A stretch of DNA of 64,000 bases from Synechococcus sp. MU1642. GTDB taxonomy: Bacteria > Cyanobacteriota > Cyanobacteriia > PCC-6307 > Cyanobiaceae. A program made the position numbers and the translations under genes. Below, one piece after another: positions 47,483-64,000 of this stretch (its first letter is position 1; each line of letters begins with the position of its first letter). The stretch covers positions 62,001 through 126,000 of the forward strand of contig NZ_VTKZ01000004.1 in the NCBI RefSeq assembly GCF_020514115.1. The letters run 5' to 3'. The notes below the pieces were generated by a model. The model ran no database searches, had not been told where the DNA came from, and worked only from the letters and a program-made list of their open reading frames with translations.

Positions 47483-48077
47483 GGATTAGCCCGCTGCTAG
47501 CAAGAAAGGATTGGGGGTCTGGGCTGGGGTCCGTAAAACCAGCGCAGAAGCTCCAGTGTTTGCAGCTCTTCAGTGGATGAGAGCTAGGGGCCAACAAACC
47601 CTGTCTGAGGTGGCTAAGCAGCCAAGCAATTGGCATTGGCTTAAGAAGGCGAATCCGAAGTGACCAAAGGTCGAACAGCTCCGATGGCCCCTGAAGGAAT
47701 CCAACTCCCTGTCGTCTACAAATCCCCACTCCTCTATCACGCTCCTCCCTTGGAGTTCGTCTGTGCTGTTCCAGGTCAGAGGGGGTTGGCAACGGGTCAG
47801 GAGACGGGGTAACAAAAAATCTGGAAGCGGCTTCACTCCCAGACCTGTCTGAACTGCTGAGAGTTGCTTCCGTGTCAACCCTCTGCTCAACAACTAAACG
47901 CCTGCGGGGCCCTCCTCCACTACCTCCAGATGGGATCAGAGTGGCTTGGTAATGGTCATCAGTACCTCCATCACCAAGCTTCGCTTTATGGCTTCTGCAG
48001 GTCTGAATGCAGAGCTGCATCAGGCAGTTGGATGGTCTCCAGTACTGAGGGGTTCTAGAGATTTTTCTTTCAGTGTT
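47483..48077. other. gene-poor stretch, start of the accessory region
   Basis: About 600 bases downstream of argF in which every frame is short or has atypical composition. I find no recognisable domain, RNA gene or terminator. It looks like decayed or non-coding DNA. Confidence 0.5.
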
Positions 48078-48240
48078 GAGGGAGGAGCGGGCCGAGGGAA
48101 GCGGAAGCCCGCTGCATGCATTCCCATCTCCCAAGACGTGGCAGTGGTGCTCGCGTCATTTGGATCGTCAGACAAGTGGAAACGATTCTCACTGAGCTGT
48201 CATGCCTATTGGTTCTTGATTCGGTTCGTGGGGCTACGCA
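48078..48240 (+). repeat. dispersed repeat R1, copy 1
   Basis: About 160 bases that match the reverse complement of 53,461-53,635 with scattered changes. Shared blocks include CCCGCTGCATGCATTC and AGACAAGTGG. Both copies can encode a related peptide tail (IVRQVETILTEL here, IIRQVGTILIEL in the other), so a small decayed gene may underlie it. Confidence 0.65.
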
Positions 48241-48324: not shown

Positions 48325-48504
48325 TTACCCGTTTTTTGTTGCCTGCCGCCTCAGCGCTGATGAGCGAATAACCACCTTCTGAATAGGGCAGTGTTCATTC
48401 GCCATCTGTCGTAAGACCGCAGCGACTCCGTGAGTGTTGCGGAATGCTTGGTAGATAGCCAATTGGTTGTTTAGGTGTTGGCAGCTCTTGCTTTTGGGAT
48501 CCAT
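48325..48504 (-). CDS. small two-copy protein, copy 1 (59 residues)
   Basis: ATG 48504 to TAA 48325. The first 47 residues (MDPKSKSCQHLNNQLAIYQA and on to CPIQKVVIR) match the frame at 53,838-53,981 with only two replacements (Asp/His and Asn/His). The other four base changes between the copies are all at third positions and synonymous. The copy here reads 12 residues past the point where the other stops. The peptide is soluble, has two Cys and no known domain. Confidence 0.55.
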   Translation of the reverse strand: MDPKSKSCQHLNNQLAIYQAFRNTHGVAAVLRQMANEHCPIQKVVIRSSALRRQATKNG

Positions 48505-48597
48505 TGGGTCAGTGCAGAGAACTGACTTGACGCTGGCCTTGGTTCGATATCGATTGAAGTGTGATCTGGCACAAATTGCTGACTACTGCTTTTGCCT
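48371..48597 (-). repeat. dispersed repeat R2, copy 1 (inverted relative to 53.75-53.98 kb)
   Basis: About 227 bases closely matching the reverse complement of 53,753-53,981. The similarity extends about 90 bases upstream of the shared ATG, including a block coding RTKASVKSV in both. Next to R1 in both places but in a different relative arrangement. Confidence 0.75.
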
Positions 48598-49386
48598 TAG
48601 TGGTTTAGGCCTCCTGGACTGGTGCCCTCGAGCTTCGGTTTGGTGTTGAACAATCACCCTCTTCAACGCGTGACGGTCACGTCAGTCGAACTCAGCCAAT
48701 ACGGTATAGACGTTCTAGGAGTGATGCGACGAGCATTCGCTCGCAGTAGTAGGTAATACAAAAAAGACGGCACTCAGTCGTTTTTCAGGGAATTGAGAAA
48801 TCGCTGCAGGGCTCCCGAACTGCCCCCATATTTGGTGTCCAGACGGTCTGCACGTATCACGTGTCACTGTCTTGGCAGCACGGGAGAGCGACCCGTCGGC
48901 TGGCAGTCAAAGCACCCTTGGCATGAGCGATGGTCAGGGGTTGCTTTCTGCGTTTTTTGCAAATTGGAAAAAATTTGTACTTTTTGACCTAAAGGTTTGT
49001 ATACCTTTGAACATGTTTATGCGGATGCTGCATCGCTCGGGGAGGACTCGTTCCTCCTTGCAGTTCCGTGACCCCAAGTCCTTGCTTCGGTTGTTGACAC
49101 ACCGACGGAGGGGTCTGTCAGCAAGTAGGGCGGTTCGGGTTCGCTGTTCGGATTTCAGGGAGAAGGAGGCAGCCGTAAGCCTCCAACTCCACAACGGCAA
49201 GAAAGACCCCTGGTGGTGTCAGTCCCAGGGGCTGAGCTCTTCTCGCTGAACTCAAGTTGATGCGCCCATGTGACCAGGTTTTGATCAACACGCTCGGATT
49301 TGATGAGCAGGTGCAACTGGCAGGCTTATCTCCCCACTGGCTCCCTTAGGTCTTGAACGCCCCCAGACAGCTAATCCGTCAAGAGG
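48505..49386. other. non-coding stretch containing repeat R3
   Basis: No intact gene found. A minus-strand frame ending at 48,777 reads VIRADRLDTKYGG then SSGALQRFLNSLKND. It looks like a true coding tail but opens right after a stop and has no upstream partner. The rest has no recognised content. Confidence 0.45.
48826..49060 (+). repeat. dispersed repeat R3, copy 1
   Basis: Similar in direct orientation to 63,757-63,995. Best-kept blocks are CCCCCATATTTGGTGTCCAG, CGTATCACGTGTCACTGTC, GGGAGAGCGACCCG and AGCTGGCAG/GGCTGGCAG. The block includes the palindrome CACGTG. The outer part is more diverged. Confidence 0.75.
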
Positions 49387-51971: not shown

Positions 51972-52030
51972 GGCTCTCGCGGTGTAAGATTGCCCCGACA
52001 AAGGCGGCTCTGCAGCCACCACGTCGACAT

Positions 52031-52103
52031 GGGGCCATAGCTCAGCTGGTAGAGCACCTGCATGGCATGCAGGGGGTCAGGAGTTCGAGTCTCCTTGGCT
52101 CCA
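52031..52103 (+). tRNA. tRNA-Ala (anticodon GGC), integration target
   Basis: A 73-nt cloverleaf: acceptor GGGGCCA/TGGCTCC with discriminator A, and anticodon stem CCTGC/GCAGG with loop ATGGCAT (anticodon GGC). The T-loop is GTTCGAGTC. CCA is not encoded. Its 3' half recurs at 61,171-61,217, marking it as the attachment site of the adjacent island. Confidence 0.96.
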
Positions 52104-52108
52104 TTCTT
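52062..52108 (+). repeat. attachment site, tRNA side (47-bp direct repeat)
   Basis: These 47 bases, from the anticodon loop to five bases past the tRNA end, are identical to 61,171-61,217. Direct repeats of a tRNA 3' end bounding a recombinase gene are the hallmark of tyrosine-recombinase integration. This copy completes a functional tRNA. Confidence 0.93.
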
Positions 52109-52136
52109 GAAAACACTGTCCTAGATAGGGTTTTCG

Positions 52137-52158
52137 GCGGTCGCAAGACCGCTTTTTT
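52137..52158 (+). terminator. terminator after tRNA-Ala
   Basis: The stem GCGGTC/GACCGC with GCAA tetraloop is followed by six T. A similar hairpin follows the second attachment site at 61,250. Confidence 0.88.
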
Positions 52159-52166
52159 AGTGCCCT

Positions 52167-52248
52167 TCTGCGCATCGTGTCCTACCTGGGTAGTCCCATG
52201 TCTGCCCATTTCTGCGCATGATTCTGCGCATAGGAATTTTTCTGCGCA
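52167..52248 (+). repeat. recombinase arm-type direct repeats (TCTGCGCA x4)
   Basis: TCTGCGCA occurs at 52167, 52211, 52223 and 52241, all on the plus strand, between the tRNA and the recombinase start. The same octamer occurs twice near the other end (61085, 61097). Placement just inside the attachment core fits arm-type binding sites of a lambda-like integrase. Confidence 0.7.
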
Positions 52249-52249
52249 C

Positions 52250-52858
52250 ATGCCTCAGCAGAAGTGGTTCGCCCGCCTTCGTGGGCAGATAAAAGACAGA
52301 TGTGGACTGGGTTGGGGCATCGCTGATCGCAACGGTGACACCCAGCTCACCCGACGCATCAATGATGGAAAGCAGCACCAGAACCCGCGGCAATCGGTGC
52401 AGCTGGGGGTGCCATGGAACCCGGCCTGCAGCGGGGACATTTTTCTGAAGGTCTGCCAGCTCAAGCAGCTGGTGGACGAGCGCCACTGCTCGCTGGCTAA
52501 GGCCAAAAAGAAACTAGATGCCAAGGACAGCGCCACCCCCACCATCACCCGCTCGGTGGAGGACGAGGACAGCGGCTGGGAGGCCGTCATCGATGACTTC
52601 ATCGACAGGCGACGGCAGGTGAACCGCGCCACAACCATGCGCGACCTGAACTGCCATATGAAGCGGGTGCTGAAGACCCTGGAGAAGAAGCCACGCCCCC
52701 AGAGCGGAGCGGACTTGATGAAGGCTTATGCCCGGCAGCATTTCAAGCATTGCCGCCCCGGTGGATCAGGTTGTTTCGGAGACGCGGGAGTTTCACCAAC
52801 CTCCCGACACCATCGCAACCGTGATGATGCGCCACGTCCACAGCCTCAGCTGGGATAA
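52250..52858 (+). pseudogene. tyrosine recombinase (integrase), N-terminal remnant
   Basis: ATG 52250 opens a frame whose first 170 residues look like the arm-binding and SAM-like core-binding domains of picocyanobacterial island integrases (QKWFARLRGQIKDRCGLGWG, LTRRINDGKQ, KQLVDERHCSLAKAKKKL, LMKAYARQHFKHCRPGGSG). Homology appears to stop near 52,770 and the frame runs out into unrelated sequence. The catalytic domain with the R-H-R-Y residues is missing, so it cannot recombine by itself. Confidence 0.78.
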
Positions 52859-53042
52859 CGATCGTGTTCAGGATGAGTTGATCACCTGGCAGATCGCAAA
52901 GGACTGCGGCAACACCCCGATCCGCAAAGGTGGTGCGAAGGGCTTCAAAAAAGCCATCGCAGCTTTGGAGGAGCAGGGCTTGGGTGAAAGTCTCCTGGTG
53001 GGCACGGTGTGGGCGTTCAAAGCGTCCAAACCATGGCCGTAG
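52823..53042 (+). CDS. hypothetical protein fragment downstream of the integrase remnant
   Basis: About 72 residues from ATG 52823; the frame opens earlier, at 52728, overlapping the integrase remnant. DELITWQIAKDCGNTPIRKG and KKAIAALEEQGLGESLLVG look like real protein. It may be the C-terminal part of another gene joined at the deletion point. No family recognised. Confidence 0.4.
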
Positions 53043-53460
53043 ACACAGCAGACAGCGGTGGACATGTGGATTGTCTGCTGCAATCGCAGTGGTCAGCTGG
53101 GCTCTGCGTTGATTCAGACAGATGGACACGGTTCCGAGTTCACTGAAGCTCCAGGGAACCCCTCCTTGGGGGGGGGGCATCTCGAAGCATGTCTTCCTGT
53201 CCGAACCGGCTCAGAGCCACTGCACCGCATGAGATCTGAGCAGACAGCATCCCTGTCTGAGCGTGTCCATGGTGTCTGACCTCCTCATGGGGGACAGGTG
53301 GCCAATCGCTGAGTCAGCAGCAGATGCAGCTACAGCAATTGTCAGCGCACAGGCAGCAAAAAAAAGAGGCAGGCCCCTCAGCCCACCCCAAACAGACGCA
53401 TTAGAGGCACCACTGCCTCTTCAACCATTGTGGCTCTCGTGCGACTTGCTTGTGTAGCCC
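53043..53460. other. non-coding stretch in the island
   Basis: No credible gene. Notable are a run of seven G at 53168-53174 and an A-run at 53358-53365, next to a weak GAGG/CCTC hairpin that could serve as a minus-strand terminator. Otherwise nothing recognised. Confidence 0.4.
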
Positions 53461-53635
53461 TATGAACTAAATCAAGAACCAATTAGGCATAACAGCTCAA
53501 TGAGAATCGTTCCCACTTGTCTGATGATTTCCTTGGGGTGAGCACCACTGCACCGCCATCGGGAGATGTGAATGCATGCAGCGGGTTTCCCTCGGCCCGC
53601 TTCTCCCTCATTCTTCAGCGCACGGGCGGAGATGC
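53461..53635 (-). repeat. dispersed repeat R1, copy 2
   Basis: Inverted and diverged copy of 48,078-48,240. In that region R1 and R2 point toward each other; here they point apart. Confidence 0.65.
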
Positions 53636-53752
53636 ATCGCGTCGAGCGATGAAGGATGCGACTCCGCCACCGTTGTGCCCTCGAACGCACAGCCGGCATT
53701 TTGGTTTTATCCCTGGACCAGGGATAGAAATTGAGTCACTTACTACCGGCAA

Positions 53753-53981
53753 CAGCAGTCGGCAGTTTTGTGGCAGATCACACTTCAATTGCTTGCGAAC
53801 CAAGGCCAGCGTCAAGTCAGTGATCTGCACTGGCCACATGGATCCCAAAAGCAAGAGCTGCCAAGACCTGAACAACCAATTGGCTATCTACCAAGCATTC
53901 CGCAACACTCATGGAGTCGCTGCGGTCTTGCGACAGATGGCGAATGAAAACTGCCCTATTCAGAAGGTAGTTATTCGCTAA
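53753..53981 (+). repeat. dispersed repeat R2, copy 2
   Basis: Inverted copy of 48,371-48,597, over 90% identical across the coding part and less upstream. Confidence 0.75.
53838..53981 (+). CDS. small two-copy protein, copy 2 (47 residues)
   Basis: ATG 53838 to TAA 53979. The sequence MDPKSKSCQDLNNQLAIYQA continuing to CPIQKVVIR is the intact, shorter form of the peptide at 48,325-48,504. The surplus of synonymous changes between the copies argues that the peptide is or was under selection. The frame is open upstream to 53517, and part of that (RTKASVKSV) is also shared, so a longer start is possible. Confidence 0.55.
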   Translation: MDPKSKSCQDLNNQLAIYQAFRNTHGVAAVLRQMANENCPIQKVVIR

Positions 53982-54181
53982 TCACCGCACAGGCGGGGGG
54001 CAGCGCCTCCAGCCCGTCTTCTGCATCGTCTGCCAAGCCTCAATGGCGTTGTGTCGCAGCATCCGCCTGCGAGTCATCGGCTCAGGTGGGCGGGGCGGTA
54101 ATCACTAAACGCTCGCAGACACATTCCTAACGTCGAGCGATTTTTTCTTTTTAGTTTTTTACTCCGTTGATAAGGAGTGAG

Positions 54182-54376
54182 ATGCGAGCAGCCATAACTC
54201 CAATGGAGAGGCTGGAGTTCGGTCTTCGGTGGGAGGCTTATCGGCTTGCCTACTTCTCGTCCATTGGTCACAGCACGAAAGTTGCCGCTTTGACCGCAAA
54301 ACTACAAACGCTTGAAGAAGACCTGCGCAGAGAGAGCTACCAGTTCAGCGATGAAGGTCAAACAGCTTTCCAGTAG
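54182..54376 (+). CDS. small island protein, 64 residues
   Basis: ATG 54182 is preceded by a good ribosome site AAGGAG at 54172. The protein is amphipathic and helical (MERLEFGLRWEAYRLAYFSS, LTAKLQTLEEDL) with no known domain. A TTG at 54167 is an alternative start. Island cargo of unknown role. Confidence 0.6.
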   Translation: MRAAITPMERLEFGLRWEAYRLAYFSSIGHSTKVAALTAKLQTLEEDLRRESYQFSDEGQTAFQ

Positions 54377-54452
54377 TCGCTAGTTAGTCAACATCCTGAG
54401 CCAGCTCAATCACGTTCCGCAGCGTCATTGCTGAGTTCAAAGCCTGGATTGG

Positions 54453-54662
54453 TCAATTAAGGATGTCGTCCCAAAGGGACGGCTCGTCGAACTCCTCAAG
54501 CAGTGAGTTTGCTTCCCGCTCTTCGCCGTGCTCAAGCAGGCATACGACTCTCGCCCAAATAAATCGAGTCAGGCGCTCTGCCTCCCTTCCCTGGTGCCCA
54601 GTCGCGAACTTCAGCGGCGGGAGGTCGTCAGGGCCTTCATCAAGAAAAGATGCTTTAGACAC
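54453..54662 (-). CDS. small island protein, 69 residues
   Basis: GTG start at 54662. An acidic soluble protein (EGPDDLPPLKFATGHQGRE, LTRFIWARVVCLLEHGEERE, EFDEPSLWDDILN). It converges with the 64-residue gene. No domain recognised. Confidence 0.6.
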   Translation of the reverse strand: MSKASFLDEGPDDLPPLKFATGHQGREAERLTRFIWARVVCLLEHGEEREANSLLEEFDEPSLWDDILN

Positions 54663-54978
54663 AAGACGAGACCAGGTGACCTCTGTCGTAACTCTCCTGG
54701 GTTCGGCGTTGGAGTATCAATGCACTCCTAAAGCAATCTTTGCCTTGAACGTCTAACGCTCTAAGCATTAAATGAACTCAGCAAGCTGAATCACGTATCG
54801 CAGCGTCACCCACTGCAAATGAGGTGAATAAGCTCTGCCTTACGGAAGGGATCTATCGGTTAGGATGTATCTCTATATCAGTGAAGCCTGATCAAGCAAA
54901 ATCCTGTCAGAAGTTATGCCGAAAGGAGGTTTTTTGGGCCGAGACGTTGCGGTTCAAAAGGCCGTTAATTTCTTCGCC

Positions 54979-55179
54979 ATGAAACAACTGAACACGGCTC
55001 ACATCAGTGCCTCGTATGGCGTCTTACGCGTCCGTGCAGCTGTGGTAATAGCCGCGATCATGGCAGTGCTTGTTTTCGTTGGCGGAGCCAACGCTTGTCA
55101 TCACAACGCTGAGACAGCCGAGCAGACCTCCACCGAAGCTCCTCAGAAAGCTGACGAGAAGACTCAATTCAAAGCCTGA
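54979..55179 (+). CDS. small exported or membrane protein with CHH motif, module A copy 1
   Basis: 66 residues from ATG 54979. A hydrophobic segment (RAAVVIAAIMAVLVFVGGANA) precedes CHHNAETAEQTSTEAPQ, a short acidic Thr/Glu-rich tail. Layout and tail resemble the 63-residue protein at 57,176 (ANAGGC then STEATTEE). The Cys-His-His could bind metal. Two tiny membrane protein genes follow at once. An upstream start at 54916 is possible. Confidence 0.6.
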   Translation: MKQLNTAHISASYGVLRVRAAVVIAAIMAVLVFVGGANACHHNAETAEQTSTEAPQKADEKTQFKA

Positions 55180-55190
55180 GCAGCTTCCAA

Positions 55191-55325
55191 ATGGATGACC
55201 GCTTGAAGGTCGCTGTTAGTGCGGTGCTCATTGCTGCAATGTTTGTAACCGCGGCTGGCGGGAACTGGATGGTTTTCCTTGTCCTCACCTCTATGGCACT
55301 ACTTGTGACCCGGGAGTTCGGCTGA
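55191..55325 (+). CDS. 44-residue membrane protein
   Basis: ATG 55191 to TGA 55325. Two short hydrophobic stretches (VAVSAVLIAAMFVTAAG and WMVFLVLTSMALLV). It begins 11 bases after the CHH protein, so the two are probably one operon. Unknown function. Confidence 0.5.
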   Translation: MDDRLKVAVSAVLIAAMFVTAAGGNWMVFLVLTSMALLVTREFG

Positions 55326-55332
55326 GAAGTAG

Positions 55333-55494
55333 ATGAAAAAACTCCTACTGCTAGTAGTTGTTGCGGCATCAATCTGGTCTGGAATTGCTCTGGATAGAGC
55401 GGGTTGGCGATACCGAAAGGAGCTTTGGCAATTTCAAGGAGCCACAGCTGGCTTCGTTGCTGGATACCTACTAGGACGTTCAAGGCTTTTGTGA
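55333..55494 (+). CDS. 53-residue membrane or exported protein
   Basis: ATG 55333 to TGA 55494. It has an N-terminal signal-like helix (KKLLLLVVVAASIWSGIAL), a basic loop (RAGWRYRKELWQFQ) and a Gly-rich second helix (GATAGFVAGYLLG). Seven bases separate it from the preceding gene. Unknown function. Confidence 0.5.
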   Translation: MKKLLLLVVVAASIWSGIALDRAGWRYRKELWQFQGATAGFVAGYLLGRSRLL

Positions 55495-55581
55495 GTTCTC
55501 AGCGCCGTCTCCAAGACAGACGTCAAACAAAAAGCTGATTGATGCGATCGCTGCCAGCATGAGTCGAGTGGGTCCTTGCGC

Positions 55582-56706
55582 ATGACCACCGCACCAGCCA
55601 GTTCCGGCGTCCCGGTCACCATTCTCAGCGGCTTCCTCGGAGCGGGAAAAACCACGCTGCTAAACCACATCCTGAGCAATCAGCATGGGGTGAAGACCGC
55701 GGTGCTGGTGAATGAGTTCGGTGAAATCGGCATCGACAACGATCTGATCGTCACCACCGATGAAGACATGGTGGAGCTGAGCAACGGTTGCATCTGCTGC
55801 TCGATCAACGACGAGTTGATGGAGGCGGTGGAACGTGTGATTGAACGCCCAGAGCCGCTCGACTACATCATTGTCGAAACCACCGGTTTGGCCGATCCCC
55901 TGCCGGTTGCGATGACCTTCCTTGGCAGTGAGCTGCGGAGTCAAACCCGCCTGGATTCGATCATCACGTTGATCGATGCAGAAAACTTCGACGACGTCGT
56001 TCTGGACACGGAAGTTGGCCGGGCCCAGGTGATTTACAGCGACATCCTGCTGCTGAACAAATGCGACCTCGTCTCCGAAGAGCGGCTTGAGGTCGTCGAG
56101 AAACGCCTCAGAGACATCAGGAACGATGCGCGGATCCTGCGGTCGGTGAAAGGAGAGGTGCCCCTAGCCCTGTTGCTGAGCGTTGGACTGTTCGAATCCG
56201 ACAAGGTGAGTTCACCCGCCACCGATCCGAGCCTGGATCACAGCGACTGCGACCACGACCATGGCCACTGCAGCCATGACCACGACCACGGTCATGACGA
56301 CCATGGTCATGATCACAGCCATGGTCACGGACACCATCACCACAGCCACAACCACGGGGACCATCAAGACATCGAGGGATTCACCTCCGTGTCCTTCCAA
56401 AGTGATGGTCCCTTCTCCCTGCGCAAGTTCCAGAACTTCCTGGACAACCAAATGCCCGAAGAGGTGTTCCGAGCAAAGGGAATCCTCTGGTTCAACGAAA
56501 GCGAACACCGCCATGTGTTCCATCTGGCGGGTAATCGATTTTCTCTCGATGACACCGACTGGACCGGCGATCGCAAGAATCAATTGGTGCTGATCGGCCG
56601 AAACATCGACCACGACACAGTTAGAGAGCAACTCCAAGCGTGTGTGACAACAGATATTTCAGCTGATTCAGCAAAGCCTAAAAATGCTGCTCTAAAAATC
56701 GGTTAA
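55582..56706 (+). CDS. CobW/COG0523-family metal-chaperone GTPase
   Basis: A 374-residue protein from ATG 55582. Walker A is GFLGAGKTTLLNH, the metal motif is GCICCSI (CxCC), and switch and base motifs include ETTGLADP and NKCD. Residues about 215-265 are a loop very rich in His and Asp (DHDHGHCSHDHDHGHDDHG), then the C-terminal CobW domain with KGILWFNESE. Such proteins deliver or store zinc or cobalt. Its island neighbours are also metal related. Confidence 0.92.
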   Translation: MTTAPASSGVPVTILSGFLGAGKTTLLNHILSNQHGVKTAVLVNEFGEIGIDNDLIVTTDEDMVELSNGCICCSINDELMEAVERVIERPEPLDYIIVETTGLADPLPVAMTFLGSELRSQTRLDSIITLIDAENFDDVVLDTEVGRAQVIYSDILLLNKCDLVSEERLEVVEKRLRDIRNDARILRSVKGEVPLALLLSVGLFESDKVSSPATDPSLDHSDCDHDHGHCSHDHDHGHDDHGHDHSHGHGHHHHSHNHGDHQDIEGFTSVSFQSDGPFSLRKFQNFLDNQMPEEVFRAKGILWFNESEHRHVFHLAGNRFSLDDTDWTGDRKNQLVLIGRNIDHDTVREQLQACVTTDISADSAKPKNAALKIG

Positions 56707-56930
56707 TCGCTGTACGTGACCGTGCACCGCCAGCGTGTTTGGAATACATAGTTGATCTCCGTGCAAGAGGTGTCAGTAACCGTCGCTCCTTCAGGCACAC
56801 GGCGGTTCGCCCTGGCAGTCGCGACCTCCAGTGACTTATCTGAGGCACGTGCCTTGTGGGAGTCATGGGCATACACAACTCCTGGACTCAGCAACACCAG
56901 CGAAAGAAGCGCAGCAAGTCGCATCGGCAT
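56703..56930 (-). CDS. small secreted protein, 75 residues
   Basis: ATG 56930. Signal peptide (MPMRLAALLSLVLLSPGVVYA) then a short domain with two Cys (TDTSCTEINYVFQTRWRCTVTY) and a His-Asp-Ser-His start. Its 3' end overlaps the cobW stop by 4 bases. No family recognised. Confidence 0.62.
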   Translation of the reverse strand: MPMRLAALLSLVLLSPGVVYAHDSHKARASDKSLEVATARANRRVPEGATVTDTSCTEINYVFQTRWRCTVTYSD

Positions 56931-56987
56931 AGAGCCCAGTACATCAATTTGATAGCAGCTCCAGCAGGGACAGAACCTTCTGAGTTC

Positions 56988-57077
56988 TCAGCGACGTCTT
57001 TGGGAGCGCAAATTAATCACCGTGTTGATGGCCGCCAAAGTGACCAGACAGGTGAGGCAAAAATCCTTGTAATCCAT
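56988..57077 (-). CDS. possible 29-residue membrane peptide
   Basis: ATG 57077 to TGA 56988, MDYKDFCLTCLVTLAAINTV with a CxxC and a basic tail. The tail region (AGTTCTCAGCGxCGTCT) resembles 55,493-55,509. Too short to be sure. Confidence 0.25.
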   Translation of the reverse strand: MDYKDFCLTCLVTLAAINTVINLRSQRRR

Positions 57078-57175
57078 ACGTGCAATGCGAGAGCCCCGCA
57101 GATTGCCACGTTGCCCTTGCGCCGCATCGTCCCCAAGGCCTGAGTTGCACCGATAGGGTCTCTTGGCTCTTAGGC

Positions 57176-57367
57176 ATGCCTCTCGTGAACCGTCATCCGA
57201 ACATTGCCTTCTTCGGTGGCACCGTGGTCATCGCGATCATGGTTATGGCTGCCTTCGCCAACGTCGCCAACGCTGGCGGTTGCTCCTACACCAAGTCCAA
57301 ATCAACCGAAGCAACAACTGAAGAGATCAAAGGCACACCCGACCAAAAGTCTGAGGTTGAAGCCTGA
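57176..57367 (+). CDS. small exported or membrane protein with Gly-Gly-Cys, module A copy 2
   Basis: 63 residues from ATG 57176. Hydrophobic segment (FFGGTVVIAIMVMAAFANVA) then NAGGCSYTKSKSTEATTEE and an acidic tail. It is built like the 66-residue protein at 54,979 and is likewise followed immediately by a tiny membrane protein gene (ATGA overlap). Confidence 0.6.
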   Translation: MPLVNRHPNIAFFGGTVVIAIMVMAAFANVANAGGCSYTKSKSTEATTEEIKGTPDQKSEVEA

Positions 57368-57510
57368 TGACCGACTATTCATCAGCTATCACTGCGCTCG
57401 TCATCGTCACCGTGGTGATCTCAGCGGCAGTCGTTTACGTACTGGCTCAGCCCACTGACCTGCCGAGATACAAGGAGAACGATCCGAGATCTAAGGAGGA
57501 AGACCGCTGA
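57367..57510 (+). CDS. 47-residue membrane protein
   Basis: ATG 57367 overlaps the preceding stop; TGA at 57508. One membrane helix (ITALVIVTVVISAAVVYVLA) and a charged C-terminus rich in Lys, Glu and Asp. Translationally coupled to the 63-residue gene. Unknown function. Confidence 0.52.
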   Translation: MTDYSSAITALVIVTVVISAAVVYVLAQPTDLPRYKENDPRSKEEDR

Positions 57511-57511
57511 A

Positions 57512-57925
57512 CGTCGATCACGCCACTTGCCGTCCCAGCTTGAGGAGGTGTCGGCGCCCCGCTGCCGCAGCCAGCTTTTCGTCTTCTATTTCCGCCCGCA
57601 GAAACCGTTTTCTCTGGGCTGACTCGTAACCACTCAGATCTGTCTGTTTTTTGGAATGTGGTTTGGGCTTCGGTTTGTCCAAACCCATCAGCAGGGGTGG
57701 ATTCCTCTTCGGCTCATTGAACTCTTCTGATATGTGGTTTTCGCGTAGTGATCTGCCTGACCCAGCCGCGTCATTACGAGTATCTTGGCATTGGGCAAGG
57801 ATTGCGGTGTAGGGGACGACATTTGCACTAAAACGTCGATCACGTTGGACGTTGAGTTGCCTAACGCCACAGGTAAGACATCACGCCGACGTAGCAGAAG
57901 GTGATGGGCTTAGCGTATGAGGCGG
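57512..57925 (-). repeat. inverted repeat R4, copy 1
   Basis: About 415 bases that match, inverted, 63,225-63,645. Shared blocks include GCAAATGTCGTCCCCTACAC, the coding region of a small basic protein and TGCTGxGTCGGCGTGATGTC-like sequence at the outer end. Several small indels separate the copies. Confidence 0.8.
57518..57688 (-). CDS. small basic protein, R4 copy 1, shortened by a frameshift
   Basis: The 66-residue protein of the other copy (63,426) begins MSRRGIHPLLMGLDKPKP. Here one base is missing in the CCGCTG that follows the ninth codon region, so the first ATG (57717) runs to an early TGA. An ATG at 57688 still gives 56 residues (MGLDKPKPKPHSKKQTDLSG to LGRQVA). Either it now starts there or it is broken. 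Confidence 0.5.
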   Translation of the reverse strand: MGLDKPKPKPHSKKQTDLSGYESAQRKRFLRAEIEDEKLAAAAGRRHLLKLGRQVA

Positions 57926-58065
57926 GGTGACGCCAAAGCAGCAAACCGTGTCGTCGGAATTACCTTCTTTGAGGGTGATTAAGTAACTCAAAGTTGGTAT
58001 CAAGCGGTAAAGTCACTCCACCGCAGTGGATTTACATAACTCATTCTGGAACCACATGAAACGCA

Positions 58066-58227
58066 ATGCTGGATATTCCGATTGCCTTTAGGTTTTTCCT
58101 ATGGCATTCGCGGGGGGCAATCGTTGCAACTGTGGCTAACTCCAAAAAAGACTTTGCCTTGCTCGCGGGCACCTTCCTCTTAGGGCTTGGAGCCTTAGAA
58201 GCAGTCCTTAATTTCTTCGGCATCTAG
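58066..58227 (+). CDS. possible 53-residue membrane protein
   Basis: ATG 58066 to TAG 58225. The C-terminal half is a clear membrane helix (FALLAGTFLLGLGALEAVL). A GTG in frame before ANSKKDFALL would give 31 residues. It converges on the solute-binding protein gene. Unknown function. Confidence 0.4.
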   Translation: MLDIPIAFRFFLWHSRGAIVATVANSKKDFALLAGTFLLGLGALEAVLNFFGI

Positions 58228-58266
58228 GCCCTCCAAGTTGCAGAAAAAGATGGGCTGGGGAAAGAC

Positions 58267-59199
58267 TCAGTTGCCCACTGTTTCGTCTGCTGACAATCCC
58301 CTAATCAACAGTTCGACGTTGTGACGCTGCAGCTTCAGCAGTGATGGAGCCGGTCCATCTTCAGTTGAGAGAGAGTCCACATAGAAGGTCCCTCCGAAAC
58401 GAGCACCGGATTCGGCTGCGACCTGTCTCTGATTTTTGTCGCTCACTGTGCTTTCACAGAAGATCGCTGGGATCTGACGTTCGCGCACGGTGTTGATCAA
58501 ACGCGCCATGCGTTTTGGTGTGACCTGGCTTTCAGCATTTACAGGCCATAGGTAAGCCTCATCAAGGCCGTAATCGCTGGCTAGATATGTGAAGGCTCCT
58601 TCGCAACTCACCAACACCCGGCGCTTTTTGGGAAGCGTTGAGAGTGCGGCCCGCAACTCCTGGTCGAGCCGATTCAGTTTCTGCTTGTAGGAGGAGGCGT
58701 TGGTAAGGAATTCATCAGCTCCTGCAGGATCCAGCTCACGGAATGCTTGCTCGAGGCGATCCACGTAGTCCATCGTGCGCTGGGGTGACATCCAGGCATG
58801 GGGGTTGGGCTTACCGGCGTAAGCGTCTTCTTCGATTAGCAGAGGCTCCATGCCCTCGGAGAGGGTCAGGGTGGGTATGTCGCCGCCGGCGCTGGCGGTG
58901 AATTTCCTCGCCCAGAGTTCCAGCCCCAGCCCGTTCTCAACGATCAGATCGGCTCCACTGGCCCGTTCGATATCACTAGGCGTCGGCTGGTAGCCGTGAA
59001 TTTCTGACCCTGGCTTCACGATTGATCGAACGGTCAGGCGATCCCCTGCCACATTCCTGGCAAGGTCTGCCAGCACCGTGAAGGTGGTCAGAACAACAGG
59101 CTTGGCGGGGCTGACGTTGTCTTGTCTGACTTGCCTGCATCCACTGCTGAAAACTGCAAGAACTGTGAGGAAGAGCCCGGCGGCGAGGCGTTTCAACAA
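58267..59199 (-). CDS. Mn/Zn-type ABC transporter solute-binding lipoprotein (cluster 9 family)
   Basis: A 310-residue lipoprotein: signal and lipobox (AVFSSGC) then the two-lobe fold. The expected metal ligands are all present: His in GSEIHGYQPT, His in KPNPHAWMSP, Glu in IFCESTVSD and Asp in YVDSLS. It lacks the His-rich loop of ZnuA and is closer to MntC/SitA types, so Mn or Zn is the cargo. No permease or ATPase gene lies nearby, so it must use a transporter encoded elsewhere. Confidence 0.88.
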   Translation of the reverse strand: MLKRLAAGLFLTVLAVFSSGCRQVRQDNVSPAKPVVLTTFTVLADLARNVAGDRLTVRSIVKPGSEIHGYQPTPSDIERASGADLIVENGLGLELWARKFTASAGGDIPTLTLSEGMEPLLIEEDAYAGKPNPHAWMSPQRTMDYVDRLEQAFRELDPAGADEFLTNASSYKQKLNRLDQELRAALSTLPKKRRVLVSCEGAFTYLASDYGLDEAYLWPVNAESQVTPKRMARLINTVRERQIPAIFCESTVSDKNQRQVAAESGARFGGTFYVDSLSTEDGPAPSLLKLQRHNVELLIRGLSADETVGN

Positions 59200-59230
59200 T
59201 TGACTAAGGACTTGCGGGCAAATCTCGCAT

Positions 59231-59362
59231 CCGTAGCGTTCGGTTCTGGTTTCAGCAGGGGTCAGCCGCTGAAGGAAACGGGGAAAGAGCAGTGAGAATC
59301 TGCCGCTGTCCCGCAGCTGTGAAACGTCGGCTCTTCGCCTTCGTCAGTCAGAACGCCCGCCA
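59231..59362 (+). promoter_or_regulatory. cobalamin riboswitch
   Basis: Conserved blocks occur in the usual order: GGTTCTGG, GAAACGGGGAA, GTGAGAATCTGCCGCTGTCC, CGCAGCTGTGA and the B12 box AGTCAGAACGCCCGCC. It sits directly upstream of the HupE/UreJ-like gene, so adenosyl- or methylcobalamin should repress that gene. Boundaries are approximate. Confidence 0.88.
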
Positions 59363-59385
59363 GGATTCCAAACGACGCGGATCGT

Positions 59386-60021
59386 ATGAGCGCACTTTCG
59401 AAAGCCAGCCCCATGCTGAGGGCTGGTGTGATCTCCACAGCAGGATTGGTCGGCTTTTCCCTGTTCAGTCCTGCTCATGCCCATCATCCCTTCGGGATGG
59501 GAGACAGCACAGATCTATCTGCTCTGCAGGGATTCTTGAGTGGCATTGGCCACCCGCTGCTCGGTCCCGACCATTTGCTGTTTCTGCTGGCGATCGCCTT
59601 GATCGGCCTACCTCGACCTCGCACATGGGTACTCCCCTTGCTGGCTGCTGGCCTAGGGGGGAGTGTTCTGTCGCAGTTCATCCCCCTGCCGGATGCCGTG
59701 GCTCCCTGGGCTGAGGCGCTGGTGTCTCTCACCCTTGCAGCAGAGGGTCTGATGGCTCTTTTCGCCATCCCTTCCTCTCTTTTATTGCCGCTAGTGGCCC
59801 TACACGGTTTCCTGTTGGGCAGCACCATTGTTGGAGCGGAACCTACACCGCTGTTCACCTATTTCTTGGGTCTGCTTATCGGGCAAGGTGCCCTGCTGCT
59901 GGTGGTGACCAGCTGGTCCCAGTCTCTGCTTGAGCGCATCGGTGCCCAGGGCCAACGGCTTGGTGCTGGTATCTGGATGGGCATCGGCCTGGCATTTGCC
60001 TGGGTGGCTCTGATCGACTGA
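59386..60021 (+). CDS. HupE/UreJ-family transporter, probable cobalt (or nickel) uptake, B12-regulated
   Basis: A 211-residue protein: signal peptide (about residues 1-32, ending AHA) then six hydrophobic helices. HHPFGMGD and SGIGHPLLGPDHLLFLLAIAL carry the family's conserved His and Asp. The cobalamin riboswitch in its leader points to cobalt for corrin synthesis, as predicted for B12-regulated HupE in cyanobacteria. cobL is also in this window. Confidence 0.87.
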   Translation: MSALSKASPMLRAGVISTAGLVGFSLFSPAHAHHPFGMGDSTDLSALQGFLSGIGHPLLGPDHLLFLLAIALIGLPRPRTWVLPLLAAGLGGSVLSQFIPLPDAVAPWAEALVSLTLAAEGLMALFAIPSSLLLPLVALHGFLLGSTIVGAEPTPLFTYFLGLLIGQGALLLVVTSWSQSLLERIGAQGQRLGAGIWMGIGLAFAWVALID

Positions 60022-60049
60022 TCACGAGCACGTCGTTCACAACTTCTCG

Positions 60050-60075
60050 CCCCAGAGATCCCCTCTGGGGTTTTT
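60050..60075 (+). terminator. terminator after the HupE/UreJ-like gene
   Basis: Stem CCCCAGAG/CTCTGGGG with loop ATCCC followed by five T. Confidence 0.9.
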
Positions 60076-60183
60076 CTTTCCTGTACAAGCGAGCCAAGCC
60101 TTCGTCCTCTCGGGGAGAGCGTCCTTTCTCATTTGCTTGATCCAGTACTGCCACATCTCATCGCCTAAAAGCAGATAAATCAA

Positions 60184-60564
60184 TCAGCGCCGGTAGTGGT
60201 GGTTCGAGTGACCGCGAAATCCTTTCTGGTCAGCCCCCAAAGCCATCATTCGATTCAACGCAGTAATGGCACCGACTGCCGCTGAAAACTGTCCTGCATT
60301 TTCTGCCTTACGGGCGATGCGCTCTAGCCGTCCCACCTGCTGGAAAAGCAAGTCCCGCTGGTCGATCTCCTCAGATCCATAGCAAGCATCCAACCAGTCC
60401 TTGTGGGCCGCAGCGACGACATCACGAGCCTGTCTGCGGGAGCACCCCCATGTTTCGGCAGTAAAGGCGGTTAATTCGCTGAGACCCATTCCGGCGTCTA
60501 TCTGTCGCACCGCCCACTCATGGCGTTGTTTCTTCTCTCCCTTGGTGACTCTCTTCCGGGTCAT
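60184..60564 (-). CDS. small-terminase-like DNA-binding protein
   Basis: A 126-residue basic protein. The N-terminus reads as a helix-turn-helix (VRQIDAGMGLSELTAFTAET then CSRRQARDVVAAA). A helical middle (LLFQQVGRLERIARKAENAG) and a part resembling oligomerisation helices (FSAAVGAITALNRMMALG) follow. Size and layout match phage terminase small subunits, and an HNH-like gene is directly divergent, as in phage packaging modules. Assignment is by pattern only. Confidence 0.5.
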   Translation of the reverse strand: MTRKRVTKGEKKQRHEWAVRQIDAGMGLSELTAFTAETWGCSRRQARDVVAAAHKDWLDACYGSEEIDQRDLLFQQVGRLERIARKAENAGQFSAAVGAITALNRMMALGADQKGFRGHSNHHYRR

Positions 60565-60599
60565 GGCTACCTACAGGGCAGTGACTGATTGGTGTTGGA

Positions 60600-61034
60600 G
60601 TGAGTTGGAGTGCTCCTGCCTGGGTCGGGTTTAGCGATGGCAAGTACAGCGAACTGATCCAGTGGAAGGCTGTGGGAGTTACTAGACGCGAAAAGAGGCG
60701 TGGTGGCTAATACACCGTCAAGCAAGCGATAGAAGCCATTCATGAAGCGTTCCACCGTTGCAGCGGTTCTGACCCTTGCGACGGTTCCACGCTCGATCCA
60801 GAGCTGCTTGGCACCTACAGCAATGAGCGAAGTAAGGAGAGGGGTGCTGCTTACAAGCAGGAGATGGCGATTTTGCCGACCGTTGATCACGTCACAGCAG
60901 AGCCGGTCCCTGACTTTGAAATCGTCATCTGGCAGACCAATGACGCCAAAGGAGACATGCCTCCTGAGGAGTTCATCGCTTACTGCCGCAGAGTTGTTCA
61001 GGTCGCAGATCAACAAGGATCAGATCGACGTTGA
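60600..61034 (+). pseudogene. HNH-endonuclease-like gene interrupted by an in-frame TAA
   Basis: From GTG 60600 the frame gives WVGFSDGKYSELIQWKAVGV and a basic stretch, then TAA at 60708. It then stays open for 107 residues of convincing protein: KQAIEAIHEAFHRCSGSDP, LLGTYSNERSKERGAAYKQ, ILPTVDHV, IVIWQTNDAKGDMPPEEF, YCRRVVQVA. The TVDHV...WxTNDAK pattern resembles HNH-type nucleases beside phage terminases. There is no standard start after the stop. Probably inactivated. Confidence 0.55.
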
Positions 61035-61084
61035 TCAATTTTTACTGTGATCGCGGCCTGATCGGTGCCTGGCAGTAGGACAAA

Positions 61085-61104
61085 TCTGCGCACCTTTCTG
61101 CGCA
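61085..61104 (+). repeat. recombinase arm-type repeats (TCTGCGCA x2)
   Basis: TCTGCGCAC occurs at 61085 and 61097, 67 to 87 bases inside the second attachment site. It matches the four copies beside the recombinase remnant. Confidence 0.68.
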
Positions 61105-61170
61105 CATGTTTTGTATTAATTAGGCGTTAGCCCAGTACGGGCAGTGGGTTTCGGCCTCAAAAATACCTCT

Positions 61171-61217
61171 ATGGCATGCAGGGGGTCAGGAGTTCGAGTC
61201 TCCTTGGCTCCATTCTT
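61171..61217 (+). repeat. attachment site, distal side (47-bp partial tRNA-Ala)
   Basis: Exact copy of 52,062-52,108: the 3' half of tRNA-Ala(GGC) without its 5' half, so not a functional tRNA. It defines the distal island boundary. Confidence 0.93.
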
Positions 61218-61249
61218 TAAAAAGTCAGTCCAACACTGGCATTTTATTG

Positions 61250-63224: not shown

Positions 63225-63645
63225 TCTTGAGCCCAGCCCATCACCCTCTGCTGTGTCGGCGTGATGTCTTGACTGTGGCATTGGGGTAACTCAACATCCA
63301 ACGTGGTCACGTTTTAGTGCAAATGTCGTCCCCTACACCGCAAATTCGTCCCACATAGGGATATTTATTTCACGCGGCTGGGTCAGGTAGACCACTACGC
63401 GACAACCACATATCAATCTAGTTCAATGAGCCGAAGAGGAATCCACCCGCTGCTGATGGGTTTGGACAAACCGAAGCCCAAACCACATTTCTCAAAACAG
63501 ACAGATCTGAGTGGTTACGAGTCAGCCCAGAGAAAACGGTTTCTGCGGGCGGAAATAGAAGAGGAAAAGCTGGCTGCGGCAGCGGGGCGCCGACATCTCC
63601 TCAACCTGGAACGCCAAGTGGCGTGATCGACGTCTGAAGTCTTTT
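63225..63645 (+). repeat. inverted repeat R4, copy 2
   Basis: Inverted counterpart of 57,512-57,925. The two copies bracket 5.3 kb that includes the solute-binding protein, the riboswitch and the distal island boundary. Confidence 0.8.
63426..63626 (+). CDS. small basic protein, R4 copy 2, intact (66 residues)
   Basis: ATG 63426 (MSRRGIHPLLMGLDKPKPKP) to TGA 63624. Basic N-terminal half, then a helical Glu/Arg/Ala-rich half (RFLRAEIEEEKLAAAAGRR). No known domain. The sister copy at 57.5 kb has lost one base near the start. Confidence 0.55.
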   Translation: MSRRGIHPLLMGLDKPKPKPHFSKQTDLSGYESAQRKRFLRAEIEEEKLAAAAGRRHLLNLERQVA

Positions 63646-63756: not shown

Positions 63757-63995
63757 CGTTAGCCCCCATATTTGGTGTCCAGGCAGCAGACGCGTATCAC
63801 GTGTCACTGTCCAGGCAGCATCGGGAGAGCGACCCGGTAGCTGGCAGATACAGCCCCCATGGCAAGAGCGATTGTCATGGGGAGCTTTCTGCGCATTTCA
63901 GATCTCTGAAAAGAGTTGGTGCATTCTCACTAAAGCTGTGTATTGCAACGAACTTGTTTGCAGCGGATACCGCATCTCTCGCGGACAACGCCGTT
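63757..63995 (+). repeat. dispersed repeat R3, copy 2
   Basis: Direct, diverged copy of 48,826-49,060. On the minus strand it can encode MTIALAMGAVSASYRVALP, and the other copy has a related frame (TIAHAKGALTASRRVALP). It may be part of a multi-copy small gene or non-coding element. Confidence 0.7.
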
Positions 63996-64000
63996 CTCCT

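Follow-up and report, generated by a model that had tools for sequence, protein, structure and literature searches.

A family of short proteins in marine Synechococcus whose gene appears to relocate together with a predicted NtcA/CRP-type promoter

The window, the whole 64,000 nucleotide stretch of the Synechococcus sp. MU1642 genome analysed here, contains two copies of a small gene that belongs to a family of microproteins. Our main reading, to which we assign a probability of roughly 0.55, is that the gene encodes a two-helix microprotein which is induced by nutrient stress and works through binding to a partner, and that this gene relocates with an activator-type promoter of its own. Marine Synechococcus contributes heavily to primary production in the ocean, and the small proteins that take part in cyanobacterial nutrient control have been little explored; a solitary, selected, relocating gene with a conserved activator-type promoter is a directly testable candidate for a nutrient-stress effector. 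A full-text search of the literature, with subscription papers mostly outside its reach and without supplements or a sequence search, returned no paper on this protein, and the family could have been published already under a locus tag. Cyanobacterial microproteins whose genes have an NtcA-type site are known as a kind; the family and its accompanying promoter appear to be new.

Two copies in the window and their protein family

The two copies, A and B, and the conserved unit to which each belongs are as follows.

53838-53981 (+): microprotein gene copy B, 47 codons plus the stop codon TAA (53979-53981), from frame and alignment
48325-48504 (-): microprotein gene copy A, 59 codons, of which the 47 conserved codons are 48504-48364, from frame and alignment
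53747-53978 (+): conserved unit of B, from -91 to codon 47 (leader, predicted promoter and coding frame), from aligned relatives
48364-48595 (-): conserved unit of A, from -91 to codon 47, from aligned relatives

Over the 47 shared codons A and B differ at six positions, four of which are third-position synonymous changes. The two replacements are His (A) to Asp (B) at codon 10 and His (A) to Asn (B) at codon 38. The initial annotation had described the pair in these terms, and our alignment reproduces every one of them. At codon 48, B has TAA and A has TCA, and because the stop has been replaced the frame of A is extended by 12 codons, to 48325. The similarity exceeds the coding part, spanning 257 columns (48340-48596 and 53748-54002) at 89%, and a second stretch of 166 columns (81%; 48077-48240 on the minus strand and 53451-53610 on the plus strand) is found downstream of A and upstream of B. 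No third copy of the peptide or of the 166-column stretch was found elsewhere in the genome. Taken on its own, the A/B pair (dN/dS 0.12, binomial P 0.018) is modest evidence, suggestive only, for selection.

A search with the single peptide through 98 genomes chosen as relatives returned 21 matches, from 15 genomes that all belong to the window's genus. A profile search (E 0.001) of 400 Cyanobiaceae genomes found 31 copies in 25 genomes, 15 of the 34 in the window's genus and 10 in a second genus, g64. Across the class (E up to 0.05), 13 of 291 genomes had a match, near full length in only six (five in the window's genus and one in g64) and short or weak in the other seven. The best of these seven, in G089 (E 1.4e-4 over 21 residues), lies in a 141 aa ORF that resembles a coiled coil by eye and was rejected as a relative. 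With five representatives as queries, searches of Pfam, NCBIfam and PHROG up to E 5 gave a best E of 0.041, and no curated cut-off was passed where one is given. Four marginal sequence matches in the PDB (best E 0.014) were judged to be chance.

Measured from the aligned start, the frame is at least 41 codons long in all 31 copies and 41-49 codons long in 30 of them, while over 40-41 codons the other five reading frames are open in 0 to 17 of the 31 loci. In 13 non-overlapping pairs pooled (598 codons), which use 26 of the 31 loci once each (L063, L064, L065, L069 and L078 excluded), pS is 0.28, pN 0.064 and dN/dS 0.19, with a binomial P of 2e-23 that assumes independent changes in pairs that we picked and whose tree paths may overlap. 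Pairs of 30 or more codons and 0.02<pS<0.6 number 90, and none of them reaches a dN/dS of 1 (median 0.23, largest 0.78). Third codon positions vary most in three groups; in subfamily 1 the value is 0.239, versus 0.120 and 0.052 at the other two positions. These codon comparisons show the 31 copies to be a real protein family under purifying selection. The initial annotation had suggested selection on a protein, and had proposed that further copies be sought and their dN/dS computed; both the copies and the ratio agree with it. The frameshifts and equal rates that it named as contrary evidence were not seen, the irregular copies being A (stop loss), L073 (41 codons, with Tyr where Cys39 is expected) and L069 (no ATG at the usual place).

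Conservation is not confined to the frame but includes the leader, and dispersed segments abound in the region, features that could also belong to a conserved RNA or DNA repeat with no more than an accidental reading frame. Given the third-position variation, the pooled dN/dS and the lack of any Rfam family at A or B at gathering thresholds, we regard such a repeat as very improbable.

In a 24-row alignment of the protein family (A2), C8, L11, L15, Y18, A29 and R32 are invariant and M1, Q14, F21, A28, Q33 and C39 nearly so. No constant neighbour gene was found in the window's genus among the 45 largest clusters listed. One neighbouring ORF is common to three subfamily-2 loci (L062, L064 and L068), and seven g64 loci share synteny. 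The family is one of short proteins of marine Synechococcus, encoded by a gene that stands alone.

The leader and its predicted promoter

The NtcA consensus is GTA-N8-TAC, and in class II promoters it is followed, 20-24 nt downstream, by a -10 hexamer of the form TAN3T or a near variant. NtcA binding is stimulated by 2-oxoglutarate, and class II transcription starts about 41.5 nt from the centre of the site. The corresponding elements predicted at the two copies in the window, on which the initial annotation is silent, are listed here.

53770-53783 (+): predicted NtcA/CRP-type site of B, GTGGCAGATCACAC, 68 nt before the ATG
53807-53812 (+): predicted -10 hexamer of B, CAGCGT, 23 nt after the site
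48559-48572 (-): predicted NtcA/CRP-type site of A, GTGCCAGATCACAC, 68 nt before the ATG
48530-48535 (-): predicted -10 hexamer of A, CAGCGT, 23 nt after the site

In alignments of 22 of the 31 loci, made in two sets, leader conservation extends to about -91. GTR-N8-YAC is found 63-72 nt before the start in 28 of the 31 copies, a count that, like the other motif counts here, overstates independence, since the related leaders amount to about 10 effective sequences and the counting was done on the same data in which the motif had first been spotted. All 28 fall in the -80 to -61 bin, against a background of 0.012 per locus per 20 nt bin at -2000 to -200. The misses are L054, which has GTG-N8-GAC, and L069 and L073. 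The looser GT-N10-AC is present in 29 of the 31 loci and absent from L069 and L073, both of which are also irregular in the coding frame. In 28 of those 29 loci (the miss is L063) CANNNT follows the site after 22-23 nt, and YANNNT occurs at this spacing after only 28 of 835 GT-N10-AC sites elsewhere in the loci. As the rows of the leader column table were selected by the GT/AC core, its constancy there is no evidence.

The match to the NtcA consensus is incomplete. Full GTA-N8-TAC is found at the promoter position in two of the 31 copies (L057 and L063), the inner positions of the half-sites are mostly G and C rather than the preferred A and T, and all 28 spaced hexamers are CANNNT, none being a strict TAN3T. 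The most divergent copy in the genus, L063 in G015, has tandem GTA-N8-TAC sites at about -106 and -66. Leaders differ greatly in appearance between subfamily 1, subfamily 2, L063 and the seven g64 loci, yet each has the site, and shuffling any of seven representative leaders produces one in 1-2% of trials. A and B are the only places in the window that show the composite pattern with a 23 nt spacing (1.13 expected), and with a 22 nt spacing it is found nowhere (1.03 expected); as 31 of 100 window shuffles give at least two composite matches, it is the places that matter and not the number. The site with its spaced hexamer has the layout of an NtcA/CRP class II promoter, and nearly every copy found carries a predicted switch of its own, of a type that responds to shortage of a nutrient, probably nitrogen.

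The exact core GTGGCANTTGGCAC has 12 matches in nine of the 34 genomes of the genus, six of them at the peptide. Three others lie within one conserved coding sequence, presumably that of a photosystem I protein, and three at another conserved place; a reversed-pattern control gave three matches. No further targets of this core were found in the 34 genomes.

Three genes in the same genome were used as references, namely amt, glnA and ntcA, which are NtcA targets. Their start codons are not fixed and each has several GT-N10-AC sites, from which we chose the one with a hexamer: GTACCTCTTGATAC-N22-TACGGT for glnA, GTAATAACCGCTAC-N22-TAACTT for ntcA and GTAGCAGATCGAAC-N22-CAGCGT for amt, where the hexamer is identical to that of A and B. 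A second such site at amt has a 24 nt spacing. The amt and copy B promoters share TTTTGTRGCAGATC and CAGCGT, a likeness that is weak as plain sequence, since 4 of 500 shuffles score as high. Non-consensus forms of the site have precedents. Forms such as GTG-N8-CAC and CAN3T are among the NtcA sites predicted in WH7803 (PMC9430850), and in Anabaena the strongest bound NtcA region is reported to have GTG-N8-TAC (PMC3898017).

With the Pfam cut-off applied, this genome has four CRP-type proteins, whose recognition helices are similar; one of them, L087, we take to be NtcA. The same microprotein could therefore answer to another CRP-family regulator and serve in a response to phosphate or another stress. 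PtrA, the phosphate-stress regulator, is one such protein of marine Synechococcus (PMC11098088). Relatives of a second CRP-type protein, L088, are found in all 15 genus genomes with the peptide, versus 10 of 19 without it. That count is confounded by incomplete genomes, and the L088 relative has an internal stop in G014 and is split over two frames in G016, both of which bear the peptide. The L089 type is also present in 15 of 15 peptide-bearing genus genomes, and the presence of the L088 and L089 types does not settle which regulator acts. GTG-N8-CAC is nearer to the CRP consensus, while the layout is common to the amt, glnA and ntcA promoters. Control by another regulator such as PtrA is in our view unlikely, though to be kept in mind, and NtcA is the favoured, and likely, regulator predicted from the family promoter.

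The product and its proposed action

The product of copy B has a net charge of +3. A structure model (pLDDT 61.5) places helices at about residues 3-19 and 26-38, and with low confidence the protein would thus consist of two helices with the nearly invariant Cys8 and Cys39. Were the helices to pack as a hairpin, these cysteines would come near one another and, by conjecture, could form a disulfide clasp. A conserved stripe formed by L11, L15, Y18 and F21 may serve in packing or in partner binding.

From established NtcA biology we infer the following course. Under nitrogen shortage, with 2-oxoglutarate rising, the microprotein gene would be activated by NtcA, or by a different member of the CRP family, bound some 42 nt ahead of the transcription start, and its mRNA would have a leader of roughly 15-24 nt. 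The two-helix product would then bind and tune one partner protein. By analogy with other small cyanobacterial stress proteins, partner binding is the most likely mode of action; NblD, PirA, IF7 and CP12 are described as small proteins that act by tuning one target (PMC7760959; PMC5126843).

The closest parallel is NsiR6/NblD, a 66 aa protein that is likewise encoded by a very small solitary gene and has conserved cysteines; the centre of an NtcA-type site lies about 42 nt ahead of the start, and NsiR6 is induced by nitrogen starvation (PMC5126843). Unlike our family, NsiR6 has two conserved pairs of cysteines, one of them CPVC (PMC5126843), and is widely conserved in cyanobacteria. The family described here has single cysteines at positions 8 and 39, is shorter, and is patchy and relocating, the sequences having been compared by description only. 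As the two cysteine pairs, including C-X2-C, that mark the NblD family are absent, and only Cys8 and Cys39 are conserved in the 24-row alignment, we do not place it in that family. Going by description, PirA, IF7/IF17 and other small proteins that regulate nitrogen metabolism in cyanobacteria are similar in being tied to nitrogen control and in acting on a partner that they bind (PMC7760959).

Relocation and the tRNA-Ala-bounded segment

In eight subfamily-1 loci the unit (-91 to +141) is 73-95% identical between copies. The upstream flanks (-291 to -121) have identities of 0.41-0.51 in 27 of 28 pairs, the exception being B with L051 (0.70), and pairs of random DNA have a mean identity of 0.48 and a maximum of 0.51. 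The downstream flanks (+171 to +341) have identities of 0.44-0.64, and the values above random mostly involve a DUF1651 fragment that follows B, L051, L052, L053 and L054. As the units are alike and their flanks are mostly no better matched than random DNA, we conclude that in subfamily 1 the unit has moved to new places, its promoter included. Over the whole unit, A is nearest to L053 of G014 (0.95) and B to L051 of G001 (0.94), and A and B are 0.91 identical to one another. Thus, as each is closer to a copy in another genome, the whole unit is not the result of a recent duplication within this genome. Taken by themselves, the coding parts do not reveal this: A and B are 0.96 identical over the codons, and A, B, L051, L053 and L055 are all 0.93-0.96 identical apart from two pairs, at 0.91 and 0.97. 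The kinship of whole units and the mostly unrelated flanks lend support to the earlier proposal that the peptide gene is mobile or was recombined.

A mechanism for the movement was not found. In an unsystematic inspection by eye of the aligned leaders, no terminal inverted repeats, target duplication or attC were seen at the unit ends, nor did a transposase or recombination site come to notice. A repeat downstream of B, considered as an attC-like palindrome, proved to be the DUF1651 fragment.

53982-54098 (-): DUF1651 gene-end fragment, convergent, with its stop abutting that of copy B; named from a longer relative in L054

The DUF1651 name comes from a test of that L054 gene rather than of the fragment. 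This genome has the fragment in four places, including the copy B site, and recombination between fragment copies is one possible way in which the unit could be moved. G001 has several segments of the window's 53.6-64 kb region within 8 kb, in a different order and orientation.

Because the promoter travels with the gene, the same control would apply wherever the gene lands. A bolder proposal follows, which we hold tentatively and with less confidence than the main reading, that a stress cassette of about 240 bp, made up of a microprotein gene and its own NtcA-type promoter, plugs into the nitrogen control of its host at each new site. If true, a ready-wired nutrient-stress effector has spread through marine Synechococcus, and a regulatory connection would be seen to have been transferred together with its gene.

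One copy had been described as lying inside an island and one outside, and this holds.

52105-61222: tRNA-Ala-bounded segment (island) that holds copy B, from the repeat of the tRNA 3'-end

A tRNA-Ala(GGC) gene occupies 52030-52104, and a 58 bp repeat of its 3'-end, 94.8% identical, is found at 61165-61222. As B lies between the two, it is inside the tRNA-bounded segment; A is about 3.5 kb outside. The repetition of the tRNA-Ala 3'-end across a 9 kb segment with copy B resembles picocyanobacterial tRNA-associated integrative elements. A tyrosine recombinase, as another mark of such elements, was not recognised in the nine window ORFs tested, a subset of those in the segment; 52067-52858, 52728-53042 and the seven others had no Pfam match. 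Copy A and most relatives have no tRNA in the loci scanned. Among 29 loci of 5.3-12.1 kb, a tRNA was found in two and a tmRNA in one.

The position of B in this segment, the patchy distribution (15 of 34 genus genomes) and the DUF1651 fragments that adjoin several copies would also fit a selfish, toxin-antitoxin-like or phage-response element, with a peptide that serves the island or phage defence and not nutrient stress. A response to phage infection is reported for DUF1651 genes of WH8102, WH8109 and MED4 (PMC5490813). Such an element is improbable, as the genus has no constant partner gene among the clusters listed, tRNA and tmRNA genes are as scarce at the loci as stated above, and the peptide had no match in 50,697 phage records, 72,556 plasmid records or viral contigs.

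Several other features of the region were observed. DUF1651 fragments are dispersed near peptide copies. Between 55576 and 60021 the segment contains CobW, ZnuA and HupE/UreJ genes and a cobalamin riboswitch (59230-59378), contents that suggest a role in metal or B12 supply. Two small frames, 54916-55179 (+) and 57080-57367 (+), have the look of a signal peptide followed by a cysteine-containing tail and no Pfam match, and DNA covering parts of both recurs near a peptide copy in G001. An inverted repeat pair of about 400 bp (57511-57910 and 63235-63633, 89%) is also represented near a G001 peptide copy, and within it, on the minus strand at 57518-57688, is a 56-codon frame that begins MGLDKPKPKPHSKKQ and has no Pfam match. 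Cyano-2 RNAs (RF01702) were found at 48874-49076 (+) and 63814-64000 (+), the second truncated by the window edge, and Cyano-2-like segments are also present near G001 peptide copies.
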